From Paragyromitra xinjiangensis (Eukaryota; Ascomycota; Pezizomycetes; Pezizales; Discinaceae): 64,000 bases of DNA. Of the stretch, positions 3,401 through 64,000 are shown piece after piece. How positions within the stretch are numbered: position 1 is the first letter of the stretch; each line of letters starts with the position of its first letter. The notes under the pieces are model-generated. The model saw only the letters and a list, made by a program, of their open reading frames with translations, ran no database searches and was not told the DNA's origin. The stretch is from positions 744,001 through 808,000 of the forward strand of contig JBCAMK010000008.1 of NCBI GenBank assembly GCA_038503065.1. Direction: 5' to 3'. The position numbers and the translations under genes are program-made.

Positions 3401-3510
3401 ATATCCTGAGGGCAGCGAGCGAGGTGCGTATTGAAAGCTCCAGCCAGAGCATAGCGACGCGGGCAATGGGGGCATTTGGTCTCCTGAGGCATACTGTCTC
3501 TGCTAGTCAT
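475..3510 (-). pseudogene. Plavaka transposase, copy A, one in-frame TAG
   Basis: This encodes the cut-and-paste transposase of copy A, about 1,011 residues if the stop is ignored. The ATG at 3510 opens a protein whose first 35 residues carry a C2HC finger (CPHC, 12 residues, H, 3 residues, C). An acidic Asp/Ser stretch follows. The Plavaka core includes ATHLTNFSGDKKAWPIYMT near residue 270 and PDTLHVVYLGILKHLMDWL near 490, both motifs of this family. The frame is broken by a TAG at 1447-1449 where copy B has CAG. Translation continues in frame to a TGA at 475 through a region that aligns with copy B. The gene is divergent from the accessory gene at 4160. A single C-to-T change separates it from an open frame. 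Confidence 0.85.
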
Positions 3511-30385: not shown

Positions 30386-30893
30386 TGGGGTGATAATCAA
30401 ACGTAGGCAACCTCAATTGAAGGTGCGCGATGTATGGGATATCCACGCTGTCCTGAGTGGGCACCCAGGCAGGTTGGGTGAACGATCGGGCGCAAGATCT
30501 AAGTGGGGCTGCACCAGCAGGCCTGGCTGCGTCACCAGCCCCTGCAGCTAGAGGTTGCTCAATACGGCAGTCATTGGGCCAGTCGTAGCTAACGGCTACG
30601 GGTCGGCCAAAGTATGCGTGACGATTCGCCCTACATATACCTAAGCCACCAATGAGTTAATATCATACTCCGCAGTAGGATAGGATTTGCTGTACCTTGT
30701 ATTTCCCTAGTATCAATATCCAGCTCCTCTTCTTCCTCCTCATCCTCCTCATCCTCCTCCTCCCCATCCTCCCCCTCAACCTCTTTAGCTCTGGCCTGCG
30801 CCTGAGTAGTCAGCCCAGCGAGTACTGCCCGCACAGCAGCATTGCCCTTATTCTTTACGGCGTCGGTCAGCAAGGTATTGATGGCTGCTTGGA
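30386..30893 (-). pseudogene. Accessory-gene relic of Plavaka copy B
   Basis: This holds the end of exon 2 (KNKGNAAVRAVLAG, then the Glu/Asp run and TREIQ), the second intron and the start of exon 3 (SVDIPYIAHLQLRLPTFDY). Exon 1 and half of exon 2 are lost in the deletion at 30888-30893. The rest of exon 3 is lost at the LINE 5' end. It lies antisense to the opening of the long transposase-containing frame. Confidence 0.85.
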
Positions 30894-40221: not shown

Positions 40222-40395
40222 GCATGTGTATTTATTTTATTTTTATTTATTTTTTATACGGCCCTGATACAAAGTATATCGCCTCAACTACCACCGCTAA
40301 ATCCTCCCCTTAATCCTAATATAAACAAAATAACAACAACAAAAAACAAAAACAAAAAATAAAACAAAACAAAATAAATAAAATAAAAACAATTT

Positions 40396-44082: not shown

Positions 44083-45515
44083 TTAATTATTGGTGGTGGG
44101 TTTTTGGAGCGATTTACTAGATATAGGGCTCTGGTCTTGGCTTTTTCTGGGCAATCGATGGCTGTGTGTTGATTGGTGTCGCAGCAGGCACAGCGGAGGG
44201 GCATGTGAGTGCATCTGGCTCCTCCTTTGCAAGTGGGAGTGGAACATTTGTGGTCTTTTGTGTGATGAGGTTGGGCGCATATGGCGCAGGCGGTGTCGCT
44301 TTTGCATGTTGCGTCGTGGTGTCCGAGTTTTTGGCAGTTGCGGCATTGGGTGGTAGGGTTAATGGGGTGATATTCCCTTGCTTTGCATGTGGCATTAAAG
44401 AGGTTGAGGTATGTGAATCCAAGTGATTTGAGAGTGTGTTTGGCGGGTATGGCGATAACGATGGAAGAGTGTTTTTTCCCTTTGCGGCCTTCTTCCGTGC
44501 TGAGCCATCTGGATGCTTGTGCGAGTTCAACTTCGGGGAGGGCTGCTTTGAGTGCATTGGTGATATCCGTGGTTTGGACTGGTTTGTCATTGAAGTGGGT
44601 GGGGACGCTGTCTAGTATAAATTTGGACCATCTGCTGTTAACTCTGGTGTTGGTGATGGGGATTTTGAGTAGTGTGCAGGCAGAGGTGATTTCATGTTGG
44701 AATTGCGTGAGGAAGGTGTCTGCTGGTTCGTTGGGTCGTGTGAGGAGCATTAGATTATCTCCATTGGTTTTCTTGACTGCGAGGATGCAGGTCTTTTGTG
44801 CTCCTAGCTTGTTGTTGATGGCGTCAAGAATTGCGTCTGGTGTAATGGTTGCTGGGAGAGGTTCGGTGAGTTCTAGGATTATTTCTCTTTTGTCTGTGGT
44901 ATAGTCCAGTTTGTAGAGAGGTTGGGGTGATGGTTTTTTGCCCTTTTTGTTTTGGACTTGTTGGAAGGATGGTTCGCCTGGTGCTGGGGCGGTGATGTTG
45001 GCATAGGAGGTTTGAGCTCCTTGTTTGGGTTTGGTCTGGTTGGTGAGCTGGGGAGCTTGAATGGTGGGGATGATGGGGGCGGTTGGTGTGGTTTTTGCTA
45101 TTTGCAAGCTGTGGAGTCTGTTATCTAGGGTGTGAACATCATTTTGAAGTCTGATGTTTTGTGCCTTGATATCGGCGAGTTTGGTGAGGGAGGATTCATG
45201 CTGTTTGTGGCTGAACTGAATCTGGGTTTTGAGACTGCTTAGCTGTTGTTCGAAATCTAGCTTAAGGTCTGCAATTTGGCTTTGGATGAGCCAGGCGAGG
45301 TAGTTAGTGGCTTTGCCATGATTGAGGTTTTGAAGTTCCTCGGGCGCAAATTGTGTGAAGTTCATGTCGGAGTTGTATTCTTGTCCTGCGATGTCTTCTT
45401 CGTCTTCGTCGGCTTCGCTAGAAGAGCTGCTTTGGTGGGAGGGGGGTTTGTCAGTCATGGGAAGGTCTGCTGCGTCAAAGGCAGAGAGCGCGGTGGAGCC
45501 TTCAGCTTGTGACAT
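44079..45515 (-). CDS. LINE ORF1 (nucleocapsid-like)
   Basis: About 478 residues from the ATG at 45515 (MSQAEGSTALSAFD), which matches the start of the plus-strand ORF1 proteins (MSAPEGSTALSAFD). Ser/Asp/Glu-rich N-terminus, a Leu-rich coiled-coil stretch around residues 90-150, a middle domain with TTDKREIILELTEPLPA and VNSRWSKFILDSVP, then Cys/His knuckles CRNCQKLGHHDATC, CAICAQPHHTKDHKC and CACCDTNQHTAIDC. It would bind LINE RNA. Confidence 0.9.
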   Translation of the reverse strand: MSQAEGSTALSAFDAADLPMTDKPPSHQSSSSSEADEDEEDIAGQEYNSDMNFTQFAPEELQNLNHGKATNYLAWLIQSQIADLKLDFEQQLSSLKTQIQFSHKQHESSLTKLADIKAQNIRLQNDVHTLDNRLHSLQIAKTTPTAPIIPTIQAPQLTNQTKPKQGAQTSYANITAPAPGEPSFQQVQNKKGKKPSPQPLYKLDYTTDKREIILELTEPLPATITPDAILDAINNKLGAQKTCILAVKKTNGDNLMLLTRPNEPADTFLTQFQHEITSACTLLKIPITNTRVNSRWSKFILDSVPTHFNDKPVQTTDITNALKAALPEVELAQASRWLSTEEGRKGKKHSSIVIAIPAKHTLKSLGFTYLNLFNATCKAREYHPINPTTQCRNCQKLGHHDATCKSDTACAICAQPHHTKDHKCSTPTCKGGARCTHMPLRCACCDTNQHTAIDCPEKAKTRALYLVNRSKNPPPIIK

Positions 45516-45829
45516 TGGGATTGTTTTGCGTTGGGTGGAAGGGGCGAGGTGAGAGGAGGTTCGTTTGCGGCCAGCAACCTTTGGTGGGGTTGTTTGGACG
45601 CGGACAAAGTGCACTGGGGTTGCGATGGGTGAGGGGGATCTCCTGGGGGGAGTTTGGGGATCCAGAGTGATGGCTCAGATGCAGGAGGAGGTAAATTTCC
45701 TGAAGCGGGGTAAAAGTGGTGAGAAAGGAAGCAGTAAAGTTAAAGACTTTTTGCTGTGTGTAACGCAGTTGCAACGCAGAATTTGGTGTTTTCGGCTATT
45801 TCAATCAGCGATGTCGGGGCATGTGTATT

Positions 45830-46085
45830 ACCAGTAGAAAGCGCTGCCAGTGCGTTGCCTATCAGCTTCCACTGATGCATACTGCACAGGTTGATTCAGA
45901 ACTCTACCACTTCCTCGGAGTGGTAGATGCAGCCGTCTAAGTGCCGTCAGCTTGTCAGCTTACGCACTTGCGGTTCCTTTGTATCAACCAGATCAGTGGG
46001 ATGCGGTAGCTCTCTGCATGTGGGAGCAACCCCACCGATGCAGGCTCCTACAGTCCCATCAGTCTGGCCCTGATCTACTACGCAT
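45830..46085. other. Short flank between the head-to-head LINEs
   Basis: This 256-bp segment separates the two insertions and should be older target DNA. It has an inverted repeat CTACCACT-TCCTCGG-AGTGGTAG at about 45902-45924. The open frame across it is short and unrecognised. Confidence 0.5.
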
Positions 46086-46098
46086 ACTAGAGGCAGTA
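46086..46098 (+). repeat. 13-bp junction repeat, copy 1 of 4
   Basis: ACTAGAGGCAGTA immediately precedes LINE copy 1 (TATAACAAGCGACC...). The same 13 bp lies at each following boundary, so three insertions are flanked by four copies, as expected for target duplications at one reused site. Confidence 0.85.
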
Positions 46099-46430
46099 TA
46101 TAACAAGCGACCGCCCACCTCGCTTCCACTTTTCCTCCATCATCTCCGACCGCAAACTCAACACCACAAACCACCTCTCCCAGAATCTCACAGAACCAAA
46201 AGTTTTCATCTCTTTGGCCTCGTTTATCATCACACCCCACCCTGCATCCGGGAATTCATCACTCCCATTGCTCTCCCATCAACCTGGCTCCCAATACTCC
46301 CCCCAGAGTATCGCCATCACCACCCGCAACTCCCGTCCGACTTGTTTGGGCACCCGTCACACCCACACCTCTTGCTGGACGCAAACGCACATCCAGTCAT
46401 CTTTCCCCCCATCTCACTCGAATCTCCAAC

Positions 46431-47864
46431 ATGTCTGCACCCGAAGGCAGCACTGCCCTCTCTGCCTTCGATCCCACAGATCTCCCCATGGAAGACAAAC
46501 CCGCTTCCAACCACAGCAGCTCCTCCAGTGAACACGACGACGATGAAAGCGTCGGAGGCCAGGAATTCAACTCCAATCTCAACTTCACACAAATCCCTGC
46601 CAAAGAAATGGCAAACATGACCAATGCCACCACCACCAACTATCTCACTTGGTTCATCCAGAGCCAATTCAACTCAATGAAAGACGAATTTGAGAGACAA
46701 ATGGACACTCTCCTAGCCCAAATCAAATTTAACAACATCCAAAATACCAACACCACCTCCAAACTCGCGGAAATTAAAGCTCAAAACATTTCCCTCCAAA
46801 ACACCGTCCGCTCCCTAGATGCCAGACTTCTACACCTTCAAACCAACCAAAGCACCAAAACCAACACTCCTGCCGCAAACAACAAACCTTCCACCACAAA
46901 CACCAGCAAACCCCCCAACACCACCAACAAAGCACAAGAAACCTACGCCAGCAAAGCCACAACAGCACCTGGCGAAAGTAACTTCACCACAGTCACCAAT
47001 CGCAAAACTCCAAAGATCCAACCACTATACAAGCCTGATTTCACCACCGACAAAAGAGAAATCATACTTGAACTCACCGAACCCCTTCCAACCTCAGCCA
47101 CCCCAGATTCCATCCTCAACGCCATCAACAACCGCCTAGGAGCCGTTAACACATGCATCCTAGCCGTTCGCAAAACCAACAACGACAATCTCATCCTCAC
47201 CACCAAACCCAACGAAGCAGCCGACAAATTCATAGAACAATACGAACATGAAATCACCTCAGCATGCAACCTCCTTAAAATTCCAATCACCAACATCAGA
47301 ATCAACAGCAGGTGGTCAAAATTCATCATCGACGCTGTCCCACTCAACTTCAACCTTGAACCTGTCACACCCACCACCATCACCAATGCCCTTCAAGCCG
47401 CCCTACCCGACGTACAACTAGCCCAAGCCCCAAGATGGCTATCCACCGAAGAAAAACGCATCGGCAAAAAAGCCTCCTCCATCGTCATCGCCCTGCCGGC
47501 CAGACACACCCTCAAAACCCTAGGCTTCACCTACCTCAACATTCTTAATGCCACCTGCAAGATCCGTGAATACCATCCAATCAACCCCACCACTCAATGC
47601 CGAAACTGTCAAAAATTAGGACACCACGACGCCACCTGCAAACAAGAAGTTGCCTGCGCCATCTGCGCACTTGCTCACCACACCAAAGACCACAAATGCG
47701 ATCAAATCACATGCAAAGGTGGCGCCAGATGCACACACATGCCACTCAGATGTGCCTGCTGCAACACCAACCAACACACCGCCATTGACTGCCCCGAAAA
47801 AATGAAGACCAGAGCACTCTACCTTGCTCAACGCGCACAAAAAATCAACAACCGTAATGATTAA
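46431..47864 (+). CDS. LINE ORF1, array copy 1
   Basis: 477 residues from the ATG at 46431. Ser/Asp-rich N-terminus, a coiled-coil-prone stretch with MDTLLAQIKF and ISLQNTVRSLDARLLHLQ, an Asn/Thr/Pro linker, a middle domain with DKREIILELTEPLP and NSRWSKFIIDAVPLNF, and knuckles CRNCQKLGHHDATC and CACCNTNQHTAIDC. It is homologous throughout to the minus-strand ORF1 at 44079-45515. The stop overlaps the ORF2 start in ATGATTAA. Confidence 0.92.
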   Translation: MSAPEGSTALSAFDPTDLPMEDKPASNHSSSSSEHDDDESVGGQEFNSNLNFTQIPAKEMANMTNATTTNYLTWFIQSQFNSMKDEFERQMDTLLAQIKFNNIQNTNTTSKLAEIKAQNISLQNTVRSLDARLLHLQTNQSTKTNTPAANNKPSTTNTSKPPNTTNKAQETYASKATTAPGESNFTTVTNRKTPKIQPLYKPDFTTDKREIILELTEPLPTSATPDSILNAINNRLGAVNTCILAVRKTNNDNLILTTKPNEAADKFIEQYEHEITSACNLLKIPITNIRINSRWSKFIIDAVPLNFNLEPVTPTTITNALQAALPDVQLAQAPRWLSTEEKRIGKKASSIVIALPARHTLKTLGFTYLNILNATCKIREYHPINPTTQCRNCQKLGHHDATCKQEVACAICALAHHTKDHKCDQITCKGGARCTHMPLRCACCNTNQHTAIDCPEKMKTRALYLAQRAQKINNRND

Positions 47865-50800
47865 ACACACCACACAAATCACAGGCATAGCCCAAGTGCA
47901 ACAACTGAATTGCGCTAAAGGAAAGGCCTCCACTCTTTCAGTACTGCATCATGCAAACATCAACACCCAACTAGCCATACTCGCCCTACAAGATCCATGG
48001 TCAGAAACCCAAGGCCTACCACCAAACATCACAAACTTTCATCGTTTTTCACCAACGAACCAAAACCCCAAATGCGTCATCTACATAAACGCAAACATGA
48101 ACCTGAATCCACGCATATCAACCTCCTTCTTCAACAACGCCATTTCAATCATAATCACCACAGCCATAGGTGACATTGAAATTTCAAACATTTACGCCAA
48201 TCACACACCCACAACACACACTTACCTCAACATGCACAACTTTCTCCCCATGCACATAATATTAGCAGACACAAACCTACACCACACATGGTGGTATGGA
48301 CTCGAAACAGACACCCATCGCACTTCCATAAACAGAACCAGAACCACAGCCAACCAACTCGTGGATTGGCTAGAAGATCACAGCTACCAACTCATCAACC
48401 ACCCAGGAACCTTCACACATTTCCCCAGAAATGGCAACAAAAATTCCATCATCGATCTTACCTTATTCAAAAATATACAACAATATCTCATAACATGGCA
48501 ATCCGATCAAGGTCTAAGAGATAACTCTGATCACACCCTGATCACAACTACCATATTTCTTCCGCCAAAACCCACAGCAACACCCAAACGCAACCTCAGC
48601 AAAGCAAACTGGACTCAATTTCACGATATAATAAGACAATCAGCAATCAACAACTCCCAACCCACCAACGCCAACGAAACCATCAAAGAATGCGAAAAAC
48701 TCACCTCCCTCATACAACTAGACACCATCACCGCCATACCCCTATCGAAACCCAGCCAACATTCCAAAGGCTGGTGGACCAATGAACTCTCCAAACTGAA
48801 AAGGAAAATAAACACCATTAATCATCTAATCAAACGACCCAATCCACCACAGCACACCAAAAGCCTCCTTAAAAATCTTCGAACGCAATGGAAAATCGAA
48901 ATCAATGAAGCCAAAAAACATCACTGGCATCAACGGCTATCCACCAACGACCCCAAGCAAATCTGGCAGGCCATCAAACAAACCAACGGCCGCAGACCCC
49001 CCACAACCATACAACCTCTACACAATGCACCCAACTTCGAAGCACAATGCAACGCCTTCAAGTCCACGTTCTTCCCACCCATCCTCGCCTCTCACCAACC
49101 ACTACCACAAAACTGGCTTCCCCCACCTGCATCAGATCAATCTACCAACATACCCTATGTCACTTCAGAATTAATTTCCAAATTGCTCGCCAAAACCTCC
49201 CCCACATCCGCCCCAGGACACGATGGGATCATTTACCCTCACATACAACACACTCATCAAGCTGCTCCTCTACTCATTCCTAAAATTTTGACAGCTGCCC
49301 TTCGCTTTGGCGCCTTCCCCGACATATGGAAACAAGCAATCGTCACACCCATACCCAAGTCAGGCAAAGACGATTACTCCAAACCTAATGCCTACCGCCC
49401 TATCTCATTATTATCATGTCTAGGCAAACTTTTAGAACGCATTATCACAAAACAATTAGAAATCGCCGCAATAAATTCAGGTGCAATAAACCACCAACAC
49501 ACAGGTGGGCGCACGGGAATCTCGGCAATAGACGCTCTTCAACAAATCATCACACCATCCCAATCCTGGCTTGACATTCCTGCCACAACAGGACATCAAA
49601 AACAATTACGACCCTCCATCCTCACTACAGACATTGAAGGAGCCTTCAACTGCGTCATCCATCAACAAATGACTGCGATCTTTCTTCACTTCAAATTTCC
49701 CACATACCTAATACAATGGTACCAGAGCTTCACTACCAACCGAACAATAGCTTTCCGCTTCAATAACACCACAAGTCCGACACTACCCTTCAACAGTGGA
49801 CTCCCTCAAGGATCCGCTGTTTCATCCATTGCCTTCACCATATACAGTGCCGCATTAGACACCGAACCATCACCCTCTAATCTCACTTATTCCAACACCT
49901 ACATTGATGACAACGCCATGCTACAAGCAAGCTTTTCACAAAAATTTGCCACCAGAACACTGCAACAACGCCTCGACCTCAAGATCAAAAGAGGCTCACA
50001 TCTCAATATCCTTTTCTCCCCGCCAAAAACAGAACTCATGCATCTAAGACTCAACTCCAGAATCAAAGATCCCATCCCCACTCCCATCACACTCTACAAT
50101 CAAAGCATCCTACCCACCGAACAAAACCGCATGTTAGGCCTCATAATCGATCGAAGATTAACTTTTCATCAACACACACATCACATCGTCGCCTCCCTAC
50201 TCAAAACCAAAGGAGCCATATATCCTCTTCTCAAATCCATACACCTCACCCCCGCCACAATACATCACATCTTGCATATAGTCCACATCCCCAAAATGTT
50301 ATGGGGTTCCCCCATATGGTGGACAGGCGCACCCACCATAATAGATAACATTCAACCAACATATCACAGCCTTGCCCGTCTCATCACAGGCCTCCCCAGA
50401 TATACCAAGATAACCCACTTACTACGCGAAGCCGCCCTACCACCGCTCAATCTACTGCTAGATTACCACTCACAAAAATACGGCATACGCATCCTAAAAA
50501 ACAACGCGTACAATCCAGCCTTCCTCCCGCTACTCAAGCTCCTTCCACAAACAACAGAATACAAAGGAACAGGACTTAAAAGAATAGCCTCCCTGCTTCA
50601 ACCCCTCATCAATAACCTACCCCTCGAAAGACTTGAATTTTCCTTCCATTCTTCATATCTTACACCAAGCTCCTTACAAATTTCCAAACTTTCCAAACAA
50701 CAAACAGCCACGCAACACATAAATTGGACAGGCACATTAGAAAACGCCTGGCTTCTTTATACAGATGGCTCCCTCAATGATAATGGACACACATCCTCCG

Positions 50801-51549
50801 GTGCATACATCGCCCATATACGCTATGGCATCACCACACAAACGTACACACATTCTTGCGCCCTCGGATATTACGCTGAGAACGAAGACGCCGAAATTCA
50901 CGCCATTCAAGAAGCCTTAGCCCTCTTGCTCCAACACATCATCCACCCCACCCCCGTATATATATGCGTCGATAATCAAAATGCTCTAAAATCACTTACA
51001 GGAGGACCCACACACAACAAGGAATACCTGTGGCACGCACTTAACGCATGCAATTCACTTCAAAACATAGGATGCTCCATCAAGGGCATATGGACTCCCT
51101 CCCATACACAAATCTTTGGCAACGAAAAAGCCGATCAACTGGCCACATTCGCCCATAACAAACCTCTCTGCCCATGGCATCGCCTTACCCTCGGACACTT
51201 ATCACTTCTACCTAAAAAACTTCTACTCAAATCATGGGCCTCTAACACCTCAGAGCCCACCGCACTCCACATCGCGCAACACCTCACATCACTACCACGC
51301 AAACGATTCTCCAAACTTGTCAAAATACGCAACCAAGCGCATTTTATCGATCCCACCGGATTCACCGATCCACTCATATGCACATGCGGCGAACAGGATG
51401 GTTCTTATCATCGCATCATGTCCTGCAAACTCAGAAACAAAGAACGACAAGTTTTCTTTAAAAATTCAGAACCAGATTGGAATGTTTTCTTTTCGCCTAA
51501 GTTAAATTTTTCCGAATTTTTTTCCTACATGAACCTATTAGGGTTATAA
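47857..51549 (+). CDS. LINE ORF2, array copy 1 (APE, RT, RNase H)
   Basis: 1,230 residues, uninterrupted. APE motifs QLNCAKGKAS, LQDPWSE, DTNLHHTWWYG and SDH; RT motifs RPISLLSCLGKLLER, TDIEGAFNCVIH, GLPQGSAVSSIAFTIYS and YIDDNAML near residue 681; RNase H motifs LYTDGS near 968, ENEDAEIHAIQEAL, CVDNQNAL and WTPSHTQIFGNEKADQLA; terminal CTCGEQDGSYHRIMSC knuckle. The ATG at 47857 lies 8 nt before the end of ORF1, so translation probably depends on reinitiation. Confidence 0.92.
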   Translation: MIKHTTQITGIAQVQQLNCAKGKASTLSVLHHANINTQLAILALQDPWSETQGLPPNITNFHRFSPTNQNPKCVIYINANMNLNPRISTSFFNNAISIIITTAIGDIEISNIYANHTPTTHTYLNMHNFLPMHIILADTNLHHTWWYGLETDTHRTSINRTRTTANQLVDWLEDHSYQLINHPGTFTHFPRNGNKNSIIDLTLFKNIQQYLITWQSDQGLRDNSDHTLITTTIFLPPKPTATPKRNLSKANWTQFHDIIRQSAINNSQPTNANETIKECEKLTSLIQLDTITAIPLSKPSQHSKGWWTNELSKLKRKINTINHLIKRPNPPQHTKSLLKNLRTQWKIEINEAKKHHWHQRLSTNDPKQIWQAIKQTNGRRPPTTIQPLHNAPNFEAQCNAFKSTFFPPILASHQPLPQNWLPPPASDQSTNIPYVTSELISKLLAKTSPTSAPGHDGIIYPHIQHTHQAAPLLIPKILTAALRFGAFPDIWKQAIVTPIPKSGKDDYSKPNAYRPISLLSCLGKLLERIITKQLEIAAINSGAINHQHTGGRTGISAIDALQQIITPSQSWLDIPATTGHQKQLRPSILTTDIEGAFNCVIHQQMTAIFLHFKFPTYLIQWYQSFTTNRTIAFRFNNTTSPTLPFNSGLPQGSAVSSIAFTIYSAALDTEPSPSNLTYSNTYIDDNAMLQASFSQKFATRTLQQRLDLKIKRGSHLNILFSPPKTELMHLRLNSRIKDPIPTPITLYNQSILPTEQNRMLGLIIDRRLTFHQHTHHIVASLLKTKGAIYPLLKSIHLTPATIHHILHIVHIPKMLWGSPIWWTGAPTIIDNIQPTYHSLARLITGLPRYTKITHLLREAALPPLNLLLDYHSQKYGIRILKNNAYNPAFLPLLKLLPQTTEYKGTGLKRIASLLQPLINNLPLERLEFSFHSSYLTPSSLQISKLSKQQTATQHINWTGTLENAWLLYTDGSLNDNGHTSSGAYIAHIRYGITTQTYTHSCALGYYAENEDAEIHAIQEALALLLQHIIHPTPVYICVDNQNALKSLTGGPTHNKEYLWHALNACNSLQNIGCSIKGIWTPSHTQIFGNEKADQLATFAHNKPLCPWHRLTLGHLSLLPKKLLLKSWASNTSEPTALHIAQHLTSLPRKRFSKLVKIRNQAHFIDPTGFTDPLICTCGEQDGSYHRIMSCKLRNKERQVFFKNSEPDWNVFFSPKLNFSEFFSYMNLLGL

Positions 51550-51745
51550 AAATTTCTTGTTGCGAATAAGTAGGGGGATGATCATTTGGTTTTCCTTTTA
51601 GTTATAAACTTCCTTTTGTTTTATTTTTATTTTTCTTTGAGAAATTGGTTCGAAAAACGGGGAGGATTTATTTGTAGATGGCGGTGGATGAGGCGATATA
51701 CTTTAGTATTAGGGCCGTAGAATTAAAACACTAAAACACTAAAAC

Positions 51746-51758
51746 ACTAGAGGCAGTA
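51746..51758 (+). repeat. 13-bp junction repeat, copy 2 of 4
   Basis: ACTAGAGGCAGTA joins the AAAACACT tail of array copy 1 to the 5' end of copy 2. The last ACT of the tail overlaps the first ACT of the repeat. Confidence 0.85.
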
Positions 51759-52090
51759 TATAACAAGCGACCGTCCACCTCGCTTCTGTTCTTCCTCCAT
51801 CATCTCCGACCGCAAACTCAACACCACAAACCACCTCTCCCAGAATCTCACAGAACCAAAAGTCTTTATCTCTTTGGCCTCGTTTATCATCACACCCCAC
51901 CCTGCATCTGGGAATTCATCACTTCCATCGCTCTCCCATCAACCTGGCTCCCAATACTCCCCCCAGAGTATCGCCATCACCACCCGCAACTCCCGTCCGA
52001 CTTGTTTGGGCACCCATCACACCCACACCTCTTGCTGGACGCAAACGCACATCCAGCCACCTTTCCCCCCATCTCACCCGAACCTCCAAC

Positions 52091-53524
52091 ATGTCTGCAC
52101 CTGAAGGCAGCACTGCTCTCTCCGCCTTTGATCCCACAGATCTCCCTATGGAAGACAAACCCGCTTCCAACCACAGCAGCTCCTCCAGTGAACACGACGA
52201 CGATGAAAGCGTCGGAGGCCAGGAATTTAACTCCAACCTCAACTTCACACAAATCCCTGCCGAAGAAATGGCAAACATGACCAATGCCACCACCACCAAC
52301 TATCTCGCTTGGTTCATCCAGAGCCAATTCAACTCAATGAAGGACGAATTTGAGAGACAAATGGACACTCTCCTAGCCCAAATCAAATTCAATAACATCC
52401 AAAACACCAACACTACCTCTAAACTTGCGGAAATCAAGGCTCAAAATATCTCCCTCCAAAACACCGTCCGCTCCTTAGATGCCAGGCTCCTACACCTTCA
52501 AACCAACCAAAGCGCCAAAACCAACATCCCTGCCGCAAACAACAAACCTCCCACCACAAACACCAGCAAACCTTCCAACACCACCAACAAAGCACAAGAA
52601 ACCTACGCCAGCAAAGCCACAACAGCACCTGGCGAAAGTAATTTCACCACCGTCACCAATCGCAAAACTCCAAAAATCCAACCACTATACAAGCCTGATT
52701 TCACCACTGACAAAAGAGAAATCATACTTGAACTTACTGAACCCCTTCCTATCTCAGCCACTCCAGACTCCATACTCAACGCCATCAACAACCGTCTAGG
52801 AGCCGTTAATACATGCATCCTAGCCGTTCGCAAAACCAACAACGACAACCTCATCCTCACCACCAAACCCAATGAAGCAGCTGACAAGTTCATCGAACAA
52901 TATGAACATGAAATCACCTCAGCATGCAACCTCCTCAAAATTCCAATCACCAACATCAGAATCAACAGCAGGTGGTCAAAATTTATCATAGACGCTGTCC
53001 CACTCAATTTTAACCTTGAACCCGTCACACCCACCACCATCACCAATGCCCTTCAAGCCGCCCTACCCGACGTACAACTAGCCCAAGCCCCAAGATGGCT
53101 ATCCACTGAAGAAAAACGTATCGGCAAAAAAGCCTCCTCCATCGTCATTGCCCTGCCGGCCAGACACACCCTTACAACCCTAGGCTTCACCTAACTCAAC
53201 ATCCTAAATGCCACTTGCAAAATCCGTGAATAGCATCCAATCAACCCCACCACTCAATGCCGAAACTGTCAAAAATTGGGACACCATGACGCCACCTGCA
53301 AACAAGAAGTTGCCTGTGCCATTTGCGCACTTGCTCACCACACCAAAGACCACAAATGCGACCAAATCACATGCAAAGGTGGCGCCAGATGCACACACAT
53401 GCCACTCAGATGTGCCTGCTGCAACACCAACCAACACACCGCCATTGACTGCCCCGAAAAAATGAAGACCAGAGCACTCTACCTTGCTCAACGCGCACAA
53501 AAAATCAACAACCGTAATGATTAA
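52091..53524 (+). pseudogene. LINE ORF1, array copy 2, two stops
   Basis: Same length and frame as copy 1 (1,434 bp). TAA at 53192-53194 and TAG at 53231-53233 both replace TAC codons just before the Cys/His knuckles, through C-to-A and C-to-G changes. The truncated 367-residue product lacks all knuckles. Confidence 0.9.
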
Positions 53525-56500
53525 ACACACAACACAGATCACAGGCATAGCCCAAGTGCAACAACTGAATTGCGCTAAAGGAAAGGCCTCCACTCTCTCA
53601 GTACTCCATCATGCGAACATCAACACCCAACTAGCCATACTCGCCTTGCAAGACCCATGGTCAGAAACCCAAGGGCTACCACCAAACATCACAAATTTTC
53701 ATCGCTTTTCACCAACGAACCAAAATCCCAAATGCGTCACTTACATAAACGCAAACATGAACCTAAATCCACGAATATCAACTTCCTTCTTCAACAACGC
53801 CATCTCAATCATAATCACCACAGCCATAGGTGACATTGAAATTTCAAACATCTACGCCAACCACACACCCACAACACACACTTACCTCAACATGCACAAC
53901 TTTCTCCCTATGCACATAATACTAGCAGACACAAACCTACACCACACATGGTGGTATGGACTCCAAACAGATACCCACCGCACCTCCATAAACAGAACCA
54001 GAACCACAGCCAACCAACTCGTGGACTGGCTAGAAGATCACAGCTACCAACTCATCAATCACCCAGGAACCTTCACGCATTTCCCTAGAAATGGCAACAG
54101 AAATTCCATCATCGATCTCACCTTATTCAAAAACACACAACAATATCTCATAACATGGCAATCCAATTAAGGTCTAAGAGATAACTCTGATCACACCTTA
54201 ATCACAACCACCATCTTTCTCCCGCCAAAACCCACAGCAACACCCAAACGCAACCTCAGCAAAGCAAACTGGATTCAATTCCACAACATAATAAAACAAT
54301 CAGCACTCAAAAATTCCCAACCCACCAACGCCAATGAAACCACCAAAGAATGCGAAAAGCTCGCCTCCCTCATACAACTAGCCACCATCACGGCCATACC
54401 CCTATCGAAACCCAGCCAACATTCCAAAGGCTGGTGGACCAATGAACTCTCCAAACTGAAAAGGAAAATAAATACCATCAACCACTTAATCAAACGACCC
54501 AATCCACCACAGCACACCAAAAGCCTCCTCAAAAATCTTCGAACGCAATGGAAAATCGAAATCAATGAAGCCAAAAAACATCACTGGCATCAACGACTAT
54601 CCACCAACGATCCCAAACAAATCTGGCAGGCCATCAAGCAAACCAATGGCCGCAGACCCCCCACAACTATACAACCTCTACACAATGCACCCAACTTCGA
54701 AGCACAATGCAACGCCTTCAAATCCACGTTCTTCCCACCCATCCTCGCCTCCCACCAACCATTACCACAAAATTGGCTTCCCCCACCTGCATCAGACCAA
54801 TCCTCCAACATACCTCATGTCACCCCAGAATTAATTTCTAAATTGCTCGCCAAAACCTCCCCCGCATCCGCCCCAGGACACGATGGGATCCTTTACCCTC
54901 ACATACAACACACTCATCAAGCTGCTCCCCTACTCATCCCCAAAATCTTCACAGCTGCCCTTCGCTTTGGCGCCTTCCCCGATACATGGAAACAAGCAAT
55001 CGTCACACCCATACCCAAGTCAGGCAAAGACGATTATTCCAAACCCAACGCCTATCACCCCATTTCATTATTATCATGCCTGGGCAAACTTCTAGAACGC
55101 ATCATCACTAAACAACTAGAAATCGCCGCAATAAACTCAGGTGCAATAAACCACCAACACACAGGTGGACGCACGGGAATCTCGGCAATAGACGCTCTAC
55201 AACAAATCATCACACCATCCCAATCCTGGCTCGATACTCCTGCTACAACAGGACACCAAAAACAACTACGACCCTCCATCCTCACTACAGATATTGAAGG
55301 AGCCTTCAACTGCGTCATCCATCAACAAATGACAGCGATCTTCCTCCACTTCAAATTCCCCACATACCTAATACAATGGTACCAAAGCTTCACTACCAAT
55401 CGAACAATAGCTTTCCGCTTCAATAATACCACAAGCCCAACATTACCCTTCAACAGTGGACTCCCTCAAGGATCTGCTGTTTCATCCATCGCTTTCACCA
55501 TATACAGTGCCGCATTGGACACTGAACCATCACCCTCTAATCTCACCTATTCCAACACTTACATTGATGACAACGCCATGCTACAAGCAAGCTTCTCACA
55601 AAACTTTGCCACCAGGACACTGCAACAACGCCTCAATCTCAAGATTGAAAGAGGCTCACACCTCAATATCCTTTTCTCCCCACCAAAAACGGAACTCATG
55701 CACCTAAGACTCAACTCCAGAGTCAAAGACCCCATCCCTACCCCCATCACACTCTATAATCAAAACATCTTACCCACCGAGCAAAACCGCATGTTAGGTC
55801 TCATAATCGATCGAAGATTAACCTTTCATCAACACACACATCACATCATCGCCTCCTTACTCAAAACCAAAGGAGTCATTTATCCTCTTCTCAAATCCAT
55901 ACACCTCACCCCCGCCACAATACATCACATTCTACAAATAGTCCATATCCCCAAAATGCTATGGGGCTCCCCCATATGGTGGACAGGCGCACCCACCATC
56001 ATAGACAACATCCAACCAGCATATCACAGCCTTGCCCGGCTCATCACGGGCCTTCCCAGATACACCAAGATAACCCACTTACTGCGCGAAGCTGCCCTAC
56101 CACCGCTCAATTTACTACTAGATTACCATTCACAAAAATACGGCATACGCATTCTAAAAAACAACGCGTATAATCCAGCCTTCCTCCCGCTACTCAAGCT
56201 CCTTCCACAAACAACAGAATACAAAGGAACAGGACTCAAAAGAATAGCCTCCCTGCTTCAACCCCTCATCAATAACATACCCCTCGAAAGACTTGAATTT
56301 CCCTTTCATTCTCCATTCCTCACACCAAGTTCTTTACAAATCTCCCAACTTTCCAAACAACAAACAGCCACGCAACACATAAACTGGACAGGCACATTAG
56401 AAAATGCCTGGCTTCTCTATACAGATGGCTCCCTCAACGACAACGGACACACATCCTCCGGTGCATATATCGCCCACATACGCTATGGCATCACCACACA

Positions 56501-57209
56501 AACATATACACATTCCTGTGCCCTCGGACATCACGCCGAGAACGAAGACGCCGAAATCCATGCTATTCAAGAAGCCTTAGCTCTCTTACTCCAGCACATC
56601 ATTCACCCTACTCCCATATACATATGCGTCGACAACCAAAATGCCCTAAAATCACTAGCAGGAGGATCCACACACAACAAGGAATACCTGTGGCACGCAC
56701 TCAACGCATGCAATTCACTTCAAAACATAGGATGCTCCATCAGTGGCATATGGACTCCCTCCCACACACAAATTTTTGGTAACGAAAAAGCCGATCAACT
56801 GGCTACATTCGCCCATAACAAACCTCTCTACCCATGGCATCGCCTTACCCTCGGACACCTTTCACTCCTACCCAAAAAACATCTATTCAAATCATGGGCC
56901 TCTAACACCTCAGAGCCCATCGCACTCCACATCGCGCAACATCTCACATCACTATCACGCAAACGGTTTTCTAAACTTGTTAAAATACGCAATCAAGAGC
57001 ATTTCATCGATCCCACCGGATTCACTGATCCACTCATATGCACATGCGGCGAACAAGATGGTTCCTATCATCGCATCATGTCCTGCAAATTCAGAAACAA
57101 AGAACGGCAAGATTTCTTTAAAAATTCAGAACCAGATTAGAATATTTTCTTTTCGTCTGAGTTAAATTTTTCTGAGTTTTTTTCTTATATGAACCTATTA
57201 GGGTTATAA
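53517..57209 (+). pseudogene. LINE ORF2, array copy 2, two stops
   Basis: The frame equals copy 1 in length (3,693 bp). TAA at 54168-54170 replaces CAA in the endonuclease domain just before the SDH motif region. TAG at 57138-57140 replaces TGG near the C-terminus. All RT and RNase H motifs remain recognisable between them (YIDDNAML, LYTDGS). One core RT residue also differs: YHPISLLSCLGKLLER where copy 1 has YRPISL. Confidence 0.9.
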
Positions 57210-57391
57210 AATTTTCTGTTACGAATAAGTAGGGGGATGATTGATTTGGTTTTCCTTCTAGTTAAAAATTTCTTTCGTTTTTATTAGAAAATTGGTTCGA
57301 AAACGGGGAGGAATTATTTGTAGATGGCGGCGGATGAGGCGATATACTTTAGTATTAGGGCCGTAGAATTAAAACACTAAAACACTAAAAC

Positions 57392-57404
57392 ACTAGAGGC
57401 AGTA
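57392..57404 (+). repeat. 13-bp junction repeat, copy 3 of 4
   Basis: ACTAGAGGCAGTA links the tail of array copy 2 to the start of copy 3, identical to the other junctions. Confidence 0.85.
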
Positions 57405-57736
57405 TATAACAAGCGACCGCCCACCTCGCTTCTACTTCTCCTCCATCATCTCTGACCGCAAACTCAACACCACAAACCATCTCTCCCAGAATTTCACAGA
57501 ACCAAAAGTCTTTATCTCTTTGGCCTCGTTTATCATCACACCCCACTCCGCATCTGGGCATTCATCACTCCCATCGCTCCACCATCAACCTGGCTCCCAT
57601 TACTCCACCCAGAGTATCGCCATCACCACCCGCAACTCCTGTCCGACTTGTTTGGGCACCCGTCACACCCACACCTCTTGCTGGGCGCAAACGCACCTCC
57701 AGCCACCTCTCTCCCCATCTCACTCGAACTTCCAAC

Positions 57737-59170
57737 ATGTCTGCATTAGAAGGCAGCACTGCCCTCTCCGCCTTTGACCCCACAGACCTTCCAATGGAAG
57801 ACAAACCTGCCTCCAACCACAGCAATTCCTCTAGTGAACACAACGACGATGAAAGCGTCGGAGGCCAGGAGTTCAACTCCAACCTCAACTTTACTCAAAT
57901 CCCCGCCGAAGAAATGACAAACATGTCCAACGCCACTTCCACCAACTACCTTGCCTGGTTCATTCAAAGTCAATTCAATTCAATGAAAGATGAATTTGAG
58001 AGACAGATGGACACCCTCTTAGCTCAAATTAAATTCAACAACATCCAAAACACCAACACCACCTCCAAACTTGCGGAAATCAAAGCCCAAAACATTTCCC
58101 TCCAAAACACCGTCCGCTCCCTAGACGCCAGACTTCTGCACCTGCAAAACAACCAAAGCGCCAAAACCAACACTCCTGCCGCAAGCAACAAATCTCCCAC
58201 CACAAACACCACCAAACCCTCCAACACCACCAACAAAGCGCAAGAAACCTATGCTAGCAAAGCCACAACAGCACCTGGCGAAAGCAACTTCACCACCGTT
58301 ACAAACAAAAAAACACCCAAGATCCAACCACTATACAAACCCGACTTCACAACCAATAAAAGGGAAATCATAATTGAGCTCACAGAACCTCTCCCCACCT
58401 CGGCCACCCCAGATTCCATCCTCAACGCCATCAATAATAGACTCGGCTCGGTTAACACAAGCATCTTAGCCGCACGCAAAACAAACAACGACAACATCAT
58501 CCTCACCACCAGACCAAACGAAGCCGCAGACAAGTTCATCGAACAATATGAACACGAAATCACCTCAGCCTGCAATCTACTCAAAATCCCCATCACCAAC
58601 ATCAGGGTCAACAGCAGATGGTCCAAATTCATCATCAACGCCGTCCCCCTGAACTTCAACCTCGAACCTGTTACGCCCACAACAATCACCAACGCCCTAC
58701 AAGCCGCCCTACCCGACGTACAACTAGCCCAAGCCCCAAGATGGCTATCAACAGACGAAAAACATATTGGCAAGAAAGCCTCCTCCATCGTCATTGCACT
58801 ACCAGCGAGACATACTCTTAAAACCCTTGGCTTCACCTATCTCAACATCCTCAACGCCACCTGCAAAATCCGCGAATACCACCCCATCAACCCAACGACA
58901 CAATGCCACAATTGCCAAAAGCTTGGACATCATGATGCCACCTGCAAACTTGAAGTCGCCTGCGCCATATGCGCACTTGCACACCACACCAAAGACCACA
59001 GATGTGATCAAATCACCTGCAAAGGAGGTGCCAGATGCACACATATGCCACTCAGATGCGCCTGCTGCAACACCAACCAACACACTGCCATCGATTGCCC
59101 AGAAAAACTCAAAACAAGAGCCCTATATCTAGCACAACGCGCTCAAAAATCAAACCAACAACATGATTAA
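57737..59170 (+). CDS. LINE ORF1, array copy 3
   Basis: 477 residues, uninterrupted, starting MSALEGSTALSAFDPTDLP. It has the same domain order as copy 1 and complete knuckles (CHNCQKLGHHDATC, CAICALAHHTKDHRC, CACCNTNQHTAIDC). The first knuckle has His instead of Arg after its first Cys. It overlaps ORF2 by ATGATTAA. Confidence 0.9.
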   Translation: MSALEGSTALSAFDPTDLPMEDKPASNHSNSSSEHNDDESVGGQEFNSNLNFTQIPAEEMTNMSNATSTNYLAWFIQSQFNSMKDEFERQMDTLLAQIKFNNIQNTNTTSKLAEIKAQNISLQNTVRSLDARLLHLQNNQSAKTNTPAASNKSPTTNTTKPSNTTNKAQETYASKATTAPGESNFTTVTNKKTPKIQPLYKPDFTTNKREIIIELTEPLPTSATPDSILNAINNRLGSVNTSILAARKTNNDNIILTTRPNEAADKFIEQYEHEITSACNLLKIPITNIRVNSRWSKFIINAVPLNFNLEPVTPTTITNALQAALPDVQLAQAPRWLSTDEKHIGKKASSIVIALPARHTLKTLGFTYLNILNATCKIREYHPINPTTQCHNCQKLGHHDATCKLEVACAICALAHHTKDHRCDQITCKGGARCTHMPLRCACCNTNQHTAIDCPEKLKTRALYLAQRAQKSNQQHD

Positions 59171-62100
59171 TTACAACAAACAAACTGCAGGCATAGCCCA
59201 GGCACAGCAACTGAACTGCGCCAAAGGCAAAGCTACCACCCTTTCAGTACTACAGCATGCAAACAACAATCCACAATTAGCCTTCCTCGCACTACAAGAT
59301 CCATGGTCCGAACATAATAGTCTCCCACCCAACATCTCAAACTTTCATCGTTTTTCACCCACTTTAACTAATCCCAAATGCGTCACATACATCAACACTA
59401 ATATGAATTTCAATCCACAAATATCACACACTTTCTTTAATAACGCTTTATCCATAATAGTCACCACAGCCATTGGCAACATCGAGATCACAAACATATA
59501 TGCCAACCACCTCCCAACAACACACACCTACTTAACTACATTTAATTTTCTCCCCAAACACATAATTCTAGCCGATACCAACCTCCACCACGTATGGTGG
59601 TACGGCAGCGAAGCCGAAAATCATATCACATCGCTGAGAAACACAAGCATACCTGCAAACCAACTGGTACAACTACTTGAAGATCAAAACTACCATCTCA
59701 CCAACTCACCTGGCATACTCACACACTTCCCCAGAAATGGCCACAAACCCTCTGTCATTGACCTCTCACTCCTCAGAAACCTGCAACAATACCTCATAGC
59801 ATGGCACGCAGACCAAGATCTCAGAGACTGCTCAGATCACGCTCTCCTTACCACCACACTTTTCATACCACCCGCACCCATAGCCACCCCAAAACGCTCA
59901 CTGCACAAAGCAAACTGGATCCTTTTCGACCAGATCATAACACAATCACCACTTAATCATTCAGTCCCAATTAATGAAGCCGAAGCCACACGCGAATGTC
60001 AACTTCTTTCACTCCTCATACAACAAGCAGTCACCACAGCTATCCCTCTTTCTAAGCCCAACAGCAAATCAAAAGGCTGGTGGACTAACGAACTTACACA
60101 ACTCAAAAAGAAAATAAACGCAGTCAAAAGACTAACACACTTCCCTCACTCACCACACATCAAACACATCCTCAAAAATTTGAGAAAACAATGGAAAAAC
60201 GAAATCTTGGAAGCCAAGAAACACCATTGGCACCAACGCCTTTCTTCAAACGATCCTAAACAAATATGGCAAGCCATCAAACAAGCAAATGGCAGACGGC
60301 CCCCCACAATCATACAACCTCTTTTAAATGCATCAGACTTCAACACACAATGCAATCTCTTTCATTCAACCTTTTTCCCACCAGTTACAAATACTTCACA
60401 AGAACTACCCAATAACTGGCTCCCTCCTCCCATTTTAAAACAATCCCACACCACACCGCTTATTACCCCACACCTCATTTCCAAACTCCTCGCCAAAACC
60501 TCACCGGCATCCTCCCCCGGCGCAGATGGCATACTCTACCCTCACATTTCTAGAGCCCATCAGGCCTCCCCCTTCCTCATTCCAAAAATATTCACCGCAG
60601 CATTAAAATTTGGCATCTTTCCCGATATCTGGAAACAAGCCATCATTACACCAATCCCAAAGGCAGGCAAAGGCGATTACTCCCAGCCCAAATCCTACCG
60701 CCCGATCTCGCTCCTTTCATGCCTAGGCAAATTACTCGAACGCCTGGTCACAAAACAACTGGAAATAGCAGCAATTAATTCAGGCGCAATAAATCAACAG
60801 CATACAGGAGGGCGCACAGGCATTTCCGCCATTGATGCGTTACAACAAATTATCACCCCTGCACAACAATGGCTAGACATTCCCGCCACAACTGGACATC
60901 AAAAACAACTCCGACCATCCCTTCTCACCACAGACATAGAAGGAGCCTTCAATTGCGTCATACACAAACAAATGGCAAACATCCTCACACACTACGAATT
61001 CCCAGCTTACCTCATCAAATGGTATCTTAGCTTCACAGCAAACAGAACCATCTCCTTCCGCTTCAATAATACTATTAGCTCTACATTCCCCTTTCACAGC
61101 GGCCTCCCTCAAGGCTCACCAATCTCCTCCATCGCCTTTACAATTTACAGTGCGGCCCTAGACATTGAACCTACCGCCTCCAATCTAACACGTTCCAACA
61201 GCTACATTGATGACAACGCCATGCTCCAAGCGAGCTTTTCACAAAAATTTGCCACCATAACACTTCAACAACACCTCAACCTAAAAATCGAATGAGGCTC
61301 ATTACTAAACATCACCTTCTCCCCCCCCAAAACCGAACTCATGCATCTAAGATTACCATCCAGAATCAAAGATCCGCTACCCATACCTATCACCCTTTAT
61401 GGCCAACAAATCTTACCAACCAAACACAGCATAGTGCTGGGCCTCACCATCGATCAAAGAATTAATTTTCATAAACATACCGATCACATCACAGCTTCCC
61501 TCTTGAAAGCAAGAGGAACCATTTATCCTCTCCTTCATTCCATCCATCTCACACCCACCAATATTCATCATATAATACAATCAATACACATACCCAAAAT
61601 GCTCTGGGGTTCCCCCATATTATGGACGGGAACAACCACCATCCTCAGAAACATTCAACCCTCCTACAATAACCTTGCCCGCCTCATCACAGGGCTTCCC
61701 AAACACACCCACATATCAGATCTTCTACGGGAAGCAGCCCTCCAGCCATTAAACCTACTCCTCGATTATCATTCCCAGAAGTACGCCATCCGTATACTCA
61801 AAAGCAACGCCAACAATCCAGCCTTTCTTCCACTTCTACAACTACTACCACAAACTACCGAATACAAGGGCACAGGCCTCAAAAGAATTGCGTCCCTACT
61901 TTACAACCTTACAAGCAACTTACCACTTGAACGATTAAATTTCCCATTTCAAAGCCCTCACCTACATGCACAACAACTCATTATTTCCATGCTCTCCAAA
62001 GAAGCCACCGCCCAACAACATAATTCCTGGATAGGCTCTCTCAACGATGCATGGCTACTGTACTCTGACGGCTCCCAGCGAGAAGATGAGCACACTTCCG

Positions 62101-62852
62101 CAGCAGCACACATTATTCACATCAGACATGGCATTCCCACACAAACCTTTCAACATTCATGCGCCTTCGGCTTTCATGCTGAAAACGAAGATGCAGAAAT
62201 CCACGCCATACAAAAAGCTCTCACCCTACTGTTACAAAACATCATCTTACCCGCAGACATTTACCTCTGCGTAGACAACCAAAATGCACTACGCGCCCTA
62301 TTCGGAGGACCCACGCAAAACAAGGAACACTTATGGCACGCCCTCAACGCCTGCAAAACCCTCACTGATATTGGATGCACCATATGAGGCATCTGGACAC
62401 CATCGCACACCAAAATTCCCGGTAATGAGGAAGCTGACCGCCTCGCCACACTAGCCCACAACAAATCTCCCTGCTCATGGCAACGCCTCACGCTAGGACA
62501 TCTTTCACTCCTTCCACGCAAACATCTTCTTCAACAATGGTCAATGAAATCTATTTATCCCACCGCTCTGAAAATTTCAAAGCATCTAACACATTTATCA
62601 CGCAAACACTGCTCTAAACTCATGCAAATACAAAACCATCTACACCACATTGATCCCACCACGTTCACCGATCCTAAACATTGCAAATGTGGGGAACTCG
62701 ATTCATCTCATCATCGCATCATGCTTTGCAAATTACGAACAGCCGAGCGTCAGGAATTTTTCAAAGATTCCAACATAGATTGGAATCTTTTCTTTTCATC
62801 TCGGTTAAATTTGTCAGAATTTTTTTCTTTTATCGGAAAACTTGAATTATAA
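59163..62852 (+). pseudogene. LINE ORF2, array copy 3, two stops
   Basis: 1,229 codons in one frame. TGA at 61293-61295, just after the RT catalytic YIDDNAML, replaces an Arg codon. TGA at 62385-62387 lies in the RNase H domain before GIWTPSHTKIPGNEEADR. Endonuclease and RT motifs are otherwise kept (PQGSPISSIAFTIYS). The terminal knuckle is CKCGELDSSHHRIMLC. Confidence 0.9.
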
Positions 62853-63049
62853 AAACAGCGCGTCATAGTAAGAAACTTGGTCGGGAATTTTCTTTGATTT
62901 ATGTCTTCTTTATTCCTTTATGTTATTAAGTTTTGATTGGAAAGTTAGTACTTTTTTTTTTTTGGGGAGGAATTATGTAGTATGACGGGGGATGAGGCGA
63001 TATACTTTAGTATCAGGGCCGTAGAATAAAAACACTAAAACACTAAAAC

Positions 63050-63062
63050 ACTAGAGGCAGTA
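63050..63062 (+). repeat. 13-bp junction repeat, copy 4 of 4
   Basis: ACTAGAGGCAGTA follows the tail of array copy 3 and is directly continued by the gypsy-type coding sequence. It marks the right edge of the array. Confidence 0.85.
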
Positions 63063-64000
63063 ACGGCATACCCGTTACACCAGGCTATGATTAATGAGGT
63101 GTTGCATGACCTATTGGATCTGGGCGTGATAGTATACTTAGATGATATACTTATCTACACAGAGACAATTGGGGAGCATCAACGCCTCGTTCAGAAGGTG
63201 CTGCAGAGGCTTCGAGAGGCAAGTCTGCATGCACACATAGACAAGACCTTCTTCCACTTGAAGGAGGTTGAGTACTTGGGATACCAGATCTCCGAGCGTG
63301 GCATCTCTATGTCAAAAGAGAAGGTCAACGCCGTGAAGGACTGGCCAGTCCCTAGGAACGTGAAGGATGTGCAAGCCTTCCTAGGCTTTGCCAACTTCTA
63401 CCGCAGGTTCATCGCCGGGTTTAGCAAGGTGTACAAACCATTGACTGACCTGCTGAGAAAAGAAGGGAAGTGGCACTGGACCGCTGCCTGTGACAGGGCT
63501 TTCGAGGAACTCAAGCAGCTGTTCACCAGCGAGCCTATCTTGGTCCACTTCCACCCACAAAGACGCAGAGTTGTAGAGACTGATGCTTCTGACTTTGCGA
63601 AGGGAGCTGTGATGTCCCAGTATGGCGAGGATGGCAAGCTGCATCCTGTTGCTTTCTATAGCAAGAAGCACTCGCCAGCTGAGATCAACTATGACATCCA
63701 TGACAAGGAAATGGGTGCCATAGTAGCTGCGTTCCGGGAATGGGAGCACCTTCTTAAGTCCGTTAAGGGAGAGGTTGTGGTCTTCACCGATCATAAGAAC
63801 CTAGAGTACTTCAACAGTAGCAAGGTTTTGACCTGCCGGCAGGCCAGATGGGCTGAGGACCTGGCGGGGTTTGATTTCAAGGTCATCTACAGACCCGGTG
63901 AACGGAATGGCAAGCCTGATGTCCTATCTAGACGTTGGGATCACCGTCTGGGAAAGGGAGGTGAACCTGCTGCCCAACAGCCGCAGTTGTTTTTCCGTCC
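63063..64000 (+). CDS. Ty3/gypsy polyprotein fragment (RT and RNase H), open at window edge
   Basis: The frame is open from the LINE junction to 64000. RT palm: VIVYLDDILIY with the catalytic DD, then LGYQISERGISMSKEK and VQAFLGFANFYRRFI. RNase H: ETDASDFAKGAVMSQ, YDIHDKEMGAIVAAFREWEH, VFTDHKNLEYF, ending FKVIYRPGERNGKPDVLSRR. The usual TNAPATFQAM ahead of the palm reads TAYPLHQAM, which looks like small compensating indels. Fingers, protease and gag are absent on the left, so it is 5'-truncated at or near the LINE array. The integrase would lie to the right, outside the window. Confidence 0.9.

Follow-up and report, generated by a model that had tools for sequence, protein, structure and literature searches.

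Why should three full-length long interspersed nuclear elements (LINEs) stand head-to-tail in a fungal genome, with the same 13 bp at every one of their boundaries? The question is raised by a 64,000-nucleotide stretch of Paragyromitra xinjiangensis DNA (assembly GCA_038503065.1, contig JBCAMK010000008.1, positions 744,001 to 808,000; hereafter the window), in which a first-pass annotation had noted the array and had attributed it to a site-specific or self-targeting LINE. We conclude, with a probability of roughly 0.9, that this family (here LINE1) is a LINE with an apurinic/apyrimidinic (APE)-type endonuclease, whose 3' ends, as found, lie only at one point in the long terminal repeat (LTR) of a Ty3/Gypsy chromovirus, and which forms arrays by way of a regenerated target duplication; and that a second family, LINE2, behaves likewise elsewhere in the same LTR.

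Within the window, the 13-mer ACTAGAGGCAGTA occurs exactly four times on the + strand and bounds three LINE1 copies, as annotated (Table 1), the bodies of copies 1, 2 and 3 being 5,647, 5,633 and 5,645 bp long. With up to two mismatches allowed there are seven matches, four of them exact, where shuffled sequences gave a mean of 1.11 and none of 100 reached seven. The 13-mer is the sole sequence common to both ends of the unit, where ends were read. All three copies carry the tail (AAAACACT)3, each sharing its ACT with the start of the 13-mer; the count of exactly three units given in the first pass holds for these copies but not genome-wide, where tails have mostly two or three units and range from one to four (by regular-expression count; 9 of the 86 rows could not be scored). 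Between copies 1 and 2, identity per 400-bp interval is 91-96%, and copy 3 is, as had been remarked, the more diverged: against copy 1 it shows 80-92% identity over the first five intervals (about 2 kb, covering the 5' untranslated region (UTR), open reading frame (ORF) 1 and the start of ORF2; 85-92% over the first four, which cover the 5' UTR and ORF1) and 65-77% beyond them, across most of ORF2. This pattern may have arisen either from a difference in constraint or by recombination with a lineage whose ORF2 is divergent, the target being retained.

The coding content of copy 1 identifies the element. Its ORF2, the ATG of which overlaps the stop of ORF1, matches PF14529 (APE-type endonuclease), PF00078 (reverse transcriptase, RT) and PF00075 (RNase H) in Pfam, while ORF1, for which no Pfam family scored above the cut-off, carries zinc-knuckle-like motifs (named by inspection) close to its end. 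With endonuclease and RT in ORF2, and no LTRs of its own, LINE1 is a LINE; the Tad/I-like placement is plausible from the APE-type endonuclease, RT and RNase H, and the order of these domains, together with the zinc-knuckle-like ORF1, would fit the Tad1 clade without amounting to proof. A protein search returned 19 relatives at 21-27% identity, none with an informative name, and a search of the PDB gave a single, weak match, to RT. Judged by open-frame lengths, ORF2 is broken in copies 2 and 3, as is ORF1 in copy 2. Among nine full copies compared (the three of the window and six elsewhere), the ORF2 frame runs to 1,233-1,247 codons stop to stop in five (window copy 1, C1_3409, C3_679, C2_2977 and C2_3013m) and is broken in the other four; because five of nine retain a full-length frame, recent activity of LINE1 is suggested. 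A 3' RNA hairpin was sought in four sequences, with no fold clearly beating shuffles (z -0.70 to 0.54).

Is the site fixed across the genome? The assembly (48.2 Mb in 22 contigs) was searched for LINE1 3' ends in a manner blind to the target, using a 3'-UTR motif upstream of the tail with at most three mismatches, which gave 86 matches, and none for the reversed control. One of these, C14:1060851, is a LINE2 by its tail and was moved to that family before counting, leaving 85, of which 80 junctions were read and five placed by coordinates. All 85 lie at one point of the LTR and in one orientation, as site specificity would predict: 45 abut the LTR end ACGGCGTACCCGTTACA or a variant of it (40 read, plus the five by coordinates), 39 abut the 5' end of another LINE1, and one (C20:796009) meets a decayed LTR end. 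The DNA past the ACGGCGTACCCGTTACA end differs between most loci. Viewed from the LTR, there are 93 such ends at up to three mismatches, with a LINE1 3' end directly beside 44 of them and no LINE1 detected at the other 49 (decay of the motif would hide a LINE1).

The 13-mer itself occurs 95 times in exact form, and the flanks of 89 occurrences were inspected. A LINE follows in 57, preceded by a LINE tail (23), by LTR sequence (19), by an internal unit discussed below (14) or by sequence of unclear nature (one, C17:928112), and all 57 of these junctions begin at the LINE 5' end. The remainder comprise 16 between a tail and an LTR end, 13 in LTRs without LINE1 (C18:977296 being diverged) and three in unrelated DNA without a LINE. 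The target duplication postulated in the first pass is borne out: it is of fixed length, 13 bp, and variants of the LTR match on both sides of the insertion, as with GCTAGAGACTGTA at C2:3008188/3013810.

As to the nature of the target, the LINE1 site is a fixed point 17 bp inside one end of a 704-bp repeat. The left flank of first copies and the right flank of last copies are continuous in repeats without LINE1, of which C5:1237609-1238312 is intact, 704 bp long, and also free of LINEs; because the flanks join in such copies into a 704-bp unit that starts TGTAACGGGG and ends GTTACA, we take the target to be an LTR. A search with the 415-bp LTR piece of the window found, among the best 40 of 109 candidates scored, matches 96-100% identical, the window's own included. 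Taken together, the frames at loci L052 and L001 are predicted to encode the domains RVT_1, RNase H, Integrase_H2C2, rve, SH3_Tf2-1 and Chromo; since integrase, SH3_Tf2-1 and the chromodomain lie in the frame adjoining the LTR (L001), and RT/RNase H in a frame between paired LTRs by coordinates (L052), the element is, by its predicted domains, a Ty3/Gypsy chromovirus. Its coding sense is the - strand of the window, LINE1 being antisense to it (by RT strand).

The LTR of the window extends from 39818 to 63079, with one LINE2 and three copies of LINE1 inserted in it. Its flanks (39817/63080) show no 5-bp duplication, reading AGCGG and CCAGG, and because of this the spot has probably been rearranged, whether by nested insertion or by recombination. 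The pol fragment that abuts the LTR end was itself used for a search (best 40 of 55 candidates scored), and among 39 other places scored, 37 begin at query base 31-32, 17 of them at 96-99% identity and 20 at 77-78%. Two earlier readings were discarded: a Helitron-like 3' hairpin for the 30 bp past the array, ruled out by the LINE-free 704-bp LTR copy, and the opposite sense for the LTR, corrected by the RT strand, by a purine-rich stretch preceding the LTR, and by the frame that encodes integrase and chromodomain.

A second LINE family uses this LTR as well. LINE2 sits in the same LTR in the orientation opposite to LINE1, and on sequence identity (ORF1 66%, ORF2 51%, endonuclease 56%, RT 55%) it is a sister family; its target, in its own sense, is AATACACATG, and its duplication in the window is 10-11 bp. 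Fourteen of 22 LINE2 3' ends (21 found by search, plus C14:1060851) lie at the LTR site, eight of them read and six placed by coordinates, one (C14:1068059) sits on another LINE2 by its junction sequence, and two more are taken as stacked from a spacing of 5.6 kb; most LINE2 ends, 15 of 22 plus these two, thus lie at the fixed target or in a stack. LINE2 stands beside 14 of 90 matches to its LTR site.

The tails of both families echo their targets. That of LINE1 ends in ACT, the first three bases of the target, and that of LINE2, of AAAT type, ends in the three bases, AAT, with which its target begins in its own sense; the overlap through ACT, proposed from the window joints, is present there and finds support genome-wide. 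LINE1 joints slip by two bases in none of 41 cases at ACTAGAGG targets, versus seven of 30 at GCTAGAGG targets (Fisher p=0.0015; 14 of 85 rows left out, five unread and nine with other target variants), where the joints read GCT for ACT and the shifted form is AAAACAC followed by GCT. Because joints slip at GCT but not at ACT targets, the pattern fits priming via short RNA-DNA pairing, and for SART1Bm, too, the tail or 3' region is argued to anneal to the target (PMC7265360).

We propose a model for how these elements might insert. The ORF2 endonuclease would nick one LTR strand directly before RCTAGAGGCAGTA, and the freed 3' end would pair with the ACU that terminates the RNA tail, (AAAACACU)n, and prime reverse transcription. 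A cut of the second strand 13 bp away would then leave the 13-mer duplicated at both edges of the new copy, and since either edge would thereby regain a site open to cleavage, further copies could insert beside earlier ones, head-to-tail and as separate events. LINE2 would act likewise at its own site, with its (AAAT)n tail. The order in which the strands are nicked and the RNA-DNA pairing are steps that we infer, and targeting of chromatin by the chromovirus may be what brings the LINEs to the region in which they cluster. The 'self-targeting' suggested in the first pass survives in part, in that copies do stack on one another at restored sites, but the primary target is the chromovirus LTR.

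Did the arrays grow in this way, or were they multiplied after a single event? Tail spacing defines 14 arrays of two to four LINE1 copies, with 18 neighbour pairs, and the last 1.4 kb was compared among 33 of the 85 copies. In none of the eight pairs testable are neighbours mutually nearest relatives, on account of which independent insertion into a regenerated duplication is supported by the sequence comparison, as the first pass had argued against a simple triplication. In the window, this part of copy 2 matches C8:649053 at 98% identity, versus 92% and 67% for its neighbours, and copy 3 is closest to C8:646102 (92%). The rival view, in which one LINE inserted and the LINE plus 13-mer was then multiplied in place through segmental duplication or unequal crossing-over, would account for the regular spacing of LINE1, for the pair C1:3404042/3409709, 97.5% identical, and for the similar joints that arrays on opposite strands of C19 share. 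It sits badly with the eight neighbour pairs, in all of which neither is the other's nearest relative (although for the C1 pair the better match is within rounding, 0.975 vs 0.975), and with copies 1 and 3 of the window, which at 65-77% identity across most of ORF2 differ by up to 35%; we regard it as very unlikely, and for the window array it is not supported. The youngest end of an array was sought from nearest-relative identities, which gave no clear order.

A shared site might also be inherited rather than chosen, had one ancestral LINE-in-LTR insertion been spread by the chromovirus. LTR and LINE identities do correlate somewhat (r=0.52 over 15 locus pairs, where for two of the six loci an LTR and a tail 8-12 kb apart are assumed to be one insertion), yet a single LTR holds, at one site, LINE lineages that are not mutually nearest, and LINE1 3' ends are 42-99.6% identical pairwise (median 82%; 528 pairs from the 33 copies), in contrast to 93.5-98.0% for six LTR pieces of LINE-bearing loci. 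The 49 of 93 LTR ends without detected LINE1, and the like use of a second site by LINE2, speak against inheritance as well, and we give this explanation scarcely any credence. Somewhat less remote, but still improbable, is that the LINE primarily targets its own 5' end, in the manner of the Zepp-like self-nesting elements, with LTR matches being secondary: 39 of 85 3' ends do abut a LINE1 5' end, and at 14 of 57 5' junctions the LINE follows an internal unit that holds LTR-like sequence and a 13-mer. Against this stand the exact 13-mers in LTR context in 13 LTRs without LINE1, the 19 LINE 5' junctions directly on LTR sequence, and the exactness of the 5' joints at the 13-mer.

Insertion into the LTR site, with stacking upon the restored duplication, remains the reading we favour, and several points weigh against it. 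The correlation of LTR and LINE identities is one, and some loci may have been co-duplicated. A LINE whose 3' end departs from the motifs by more than three mismatches would escape the search, so that other targets may be in use by further families or copies, and five of the 22 LINE2 3' ends were not seen. In the register test the joints lack independence (those at C19:921713 and C19:1024482 look alike), and local LTR variants are possible. The evidence, moreover, comes from one genome and from sequence only. Occupancy of LTRs bears no significant relation to position, with LINE1 at three of 13 LTRs farther than 150 kb from the median LTR of their contig and at 41 of 80 nearer ones (p=0.076), or two of 10 vs 42 of 83 at a 250 kb cut-off (p=0.095), nor to local LTR density (18 of 37 vs 26 of 56, p=1); because of this, guidance of the LINEs by chromatin, beyond sequence, is not supported.

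The extra unit found before 14 of the 57 LINE1 5' junctions at exact 13-mers deserves separate description. LTR-like sequence with a 13-mer closes the unit, and in the seven of 14 that are readable further it consists of ~250 bp of LINE 5' UTR, ~46 bp of unassigned origin and ~45 bp of LTR-like sequence, followed by the 13-mer; pairs of 13-mers stand 355-357 bp apart on C11 (twice), C17 and C18. We also note such a ~355-bp 5' unit, with its spare target, at C1:3398419, C2:3013810, C9:1384328, C11:1459816 and others. On C19, LINE1 arrays at 915-927 kb and 1018-1024 kb lie on opposite strands with similar joints and are perhaps an inverted duplication. At C21:515891-516331, a pair of LINE1 3' ends, both accompanied by an LTR end, is separated by 355 bp, as a short local duplication or a truncated copy would produce.

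How do these elements compare with known site-specific LINEs? The nearest case known to us is Tx1L of Xenopus, reportedly a LINE fixed in a DNA transposon, which is alike in having another transposon as its fixed target; here the target is an LTR, two sister families use two sites in opposite senses, and the duplication regenerates and permits stacking. Among fungi, MoTeR is a telomere LINE with site-linked insertion, and Grem-LINE1 of Mucoromycotina is a LINE found near centromeres, for which we know of no fixed target. FoTeR is likewise a fungal LINE with site-linked insertion (PMC12857005). Unlike MoTeR and FoTeR, whose sites are at chromosome ends, the elements described here use an internal LTR site. 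A search of open-licence literature, at the level of titles and abstract openings, found no report of LINEs for which an LTR is the fixed target; PMC5035012 counts transposons among the targets of LINEs. LINE1 resembles R1, TRAS and SART in its APE-type endonuclease, its strict site specificity, and the proposed annealing of its tail or 3' region with the target (PMC7265360 and PMC4640811), and differs in having the LTR of another retrotransposon as target, a fungal host, and full-length copies stacked at one site.

The 3' ends of LINE1 and LINE2, taken together, occur on 20 of the 22 contigs, four of which have a single end, and on each of the 16 contigs with at least two ends the whole set falls inside one stretch 12 to 206 kb long. 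Together these stretches add up to 1.77 Mb, where 2,000 simulations gave a mean of 24.1 Mb and a minimum of 19.1 Mb. These regions, one on each such contig, may be centromere-like. Zepp and Zepp-like LINEs of green algae form one cluster of stacked copies per chromosome, probably centromeric, and Zepp is an L1 element that inserts into copies of itself already present and is often truncated at the 5' end (PMC3446292 and PMC8226300). The clusters described here match in being one per chromosome and made of stacked copies, and differ in their exact 5' joints at the 13-mer and in a primary site that lies in the LTR (45 of 85 3' ends, 19 5' junctions); judged on that primary site and on the 57 junctions at exact 13-mers, all of which start at the LINE 5' end, Zepp-like primary self-targeting with frequent truncation is not supported.

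We speculate, at a little under even odds, that this LINE lineage is an obligate hyperparasite of a chromodomain retrotransposon that reaches centromeric chromatin, the LINEs finding the LTR by its sequence and the two sister families dividing its sites between them, with rebuilt and spare sites giving rise to arrays that form much of the (peri)centromere. Such a system also offers a simple, sequence-based way in which LINEs might be restricted to a single region of each chromosome and enlarge it. Two sister families with different targets and tails in one LTR offer a natural pair for studying how endonuclease and RNA tail choose a site, and the ACT/GCT target variants are a natural mutation series for the pairing of tail and target.

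Table 1. Features of the interrupted LTR and its resident LINEs (window coordinates)
Feature	Position	Strand	Basis
LTR, first interrupted piece, starts TGTAACGGGGG in + orientation	39818..40232	-	415-bp query search
LINE2 duplication CATGTGTATT, left copy, 10 bp (11 with preceding G); right copy 45820-45829	40223..40232	.	flanks
LINE2, 5,587 bp, AT-rich tail (AAAT/AAAAT)n, second LTR site	40233..45819	-	domains, flanks
LINE2 ORF2, endonuclease, RT and RNase H	40396..44082	-	domains
LINE2 ORF1, zinc-knuckle-like motifs; frame open to 45614, first ATG 45515	44079..45515	-	translation
LTR, second interrupted piece, right LINE2 duplication to first LINE1 13-mer	45820..46098	-	flank comparison
LINE1 target/duplication 1 of 4, ACTAGAGGCAGTA	46086..46098	.	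exact 13-mer match
LINE1 copy 1, full length, both ORFs open	46099..51745	+	ORFs, domains, body comparison
LINE1 copy 1 ORF1, 477 aa, zinc-knuckle-like motifs	46431..47864	+	open frame, translation
LINE1 copy 1 ORF2, 1,230 aa, endonuclease, RT and RNase H	47857..51549	+	Pfam domains
Tail (AAAACACT)3 of copy 1, final ACT inside target	51725..51748	+	sequence
LINE1 target/duplication 2 of 4	51746..51758	.	exact 13-mer match
LINE1 copy 2, ORFs broken	51759..57391	+	body comparison, open-frame lengths
Tail (AAAACACT)3 of copy 2	57371..57394	+	sequence
LINE1 target/duplication 3 of 4	57392..57404	.	exact 13-mer match
LINE1 copy 3, ORF2 divergent, target and tail as in copies 1 and 2	57405..63049	+	body comparison
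Tail (AAAACACT)3 of copy 3	63029..63052	+	sequence
LINE1 target/duplication 4 of 4	63050..63062	.	exact 13-mer match
LTR last 17 bp, ACGGCATACCCGTTACA, completing the LTR split from 39818	63063..63079	-	LTR-end comparison
pol (RT region) fragment, same chromovirus family, abutting LTR end	63080..64000	+	similarity search

Elsewhere in the window, frames for transposases of Plavaka, a transposon group typical of fungi and in keeping with the host, lie at 1447-3585 (- strand) and 30697-33486 (+ strand), and at 17863-21146 (+ strand) a frame with a Helitron-like N domain is followed by a PIF1-like helicase frame.

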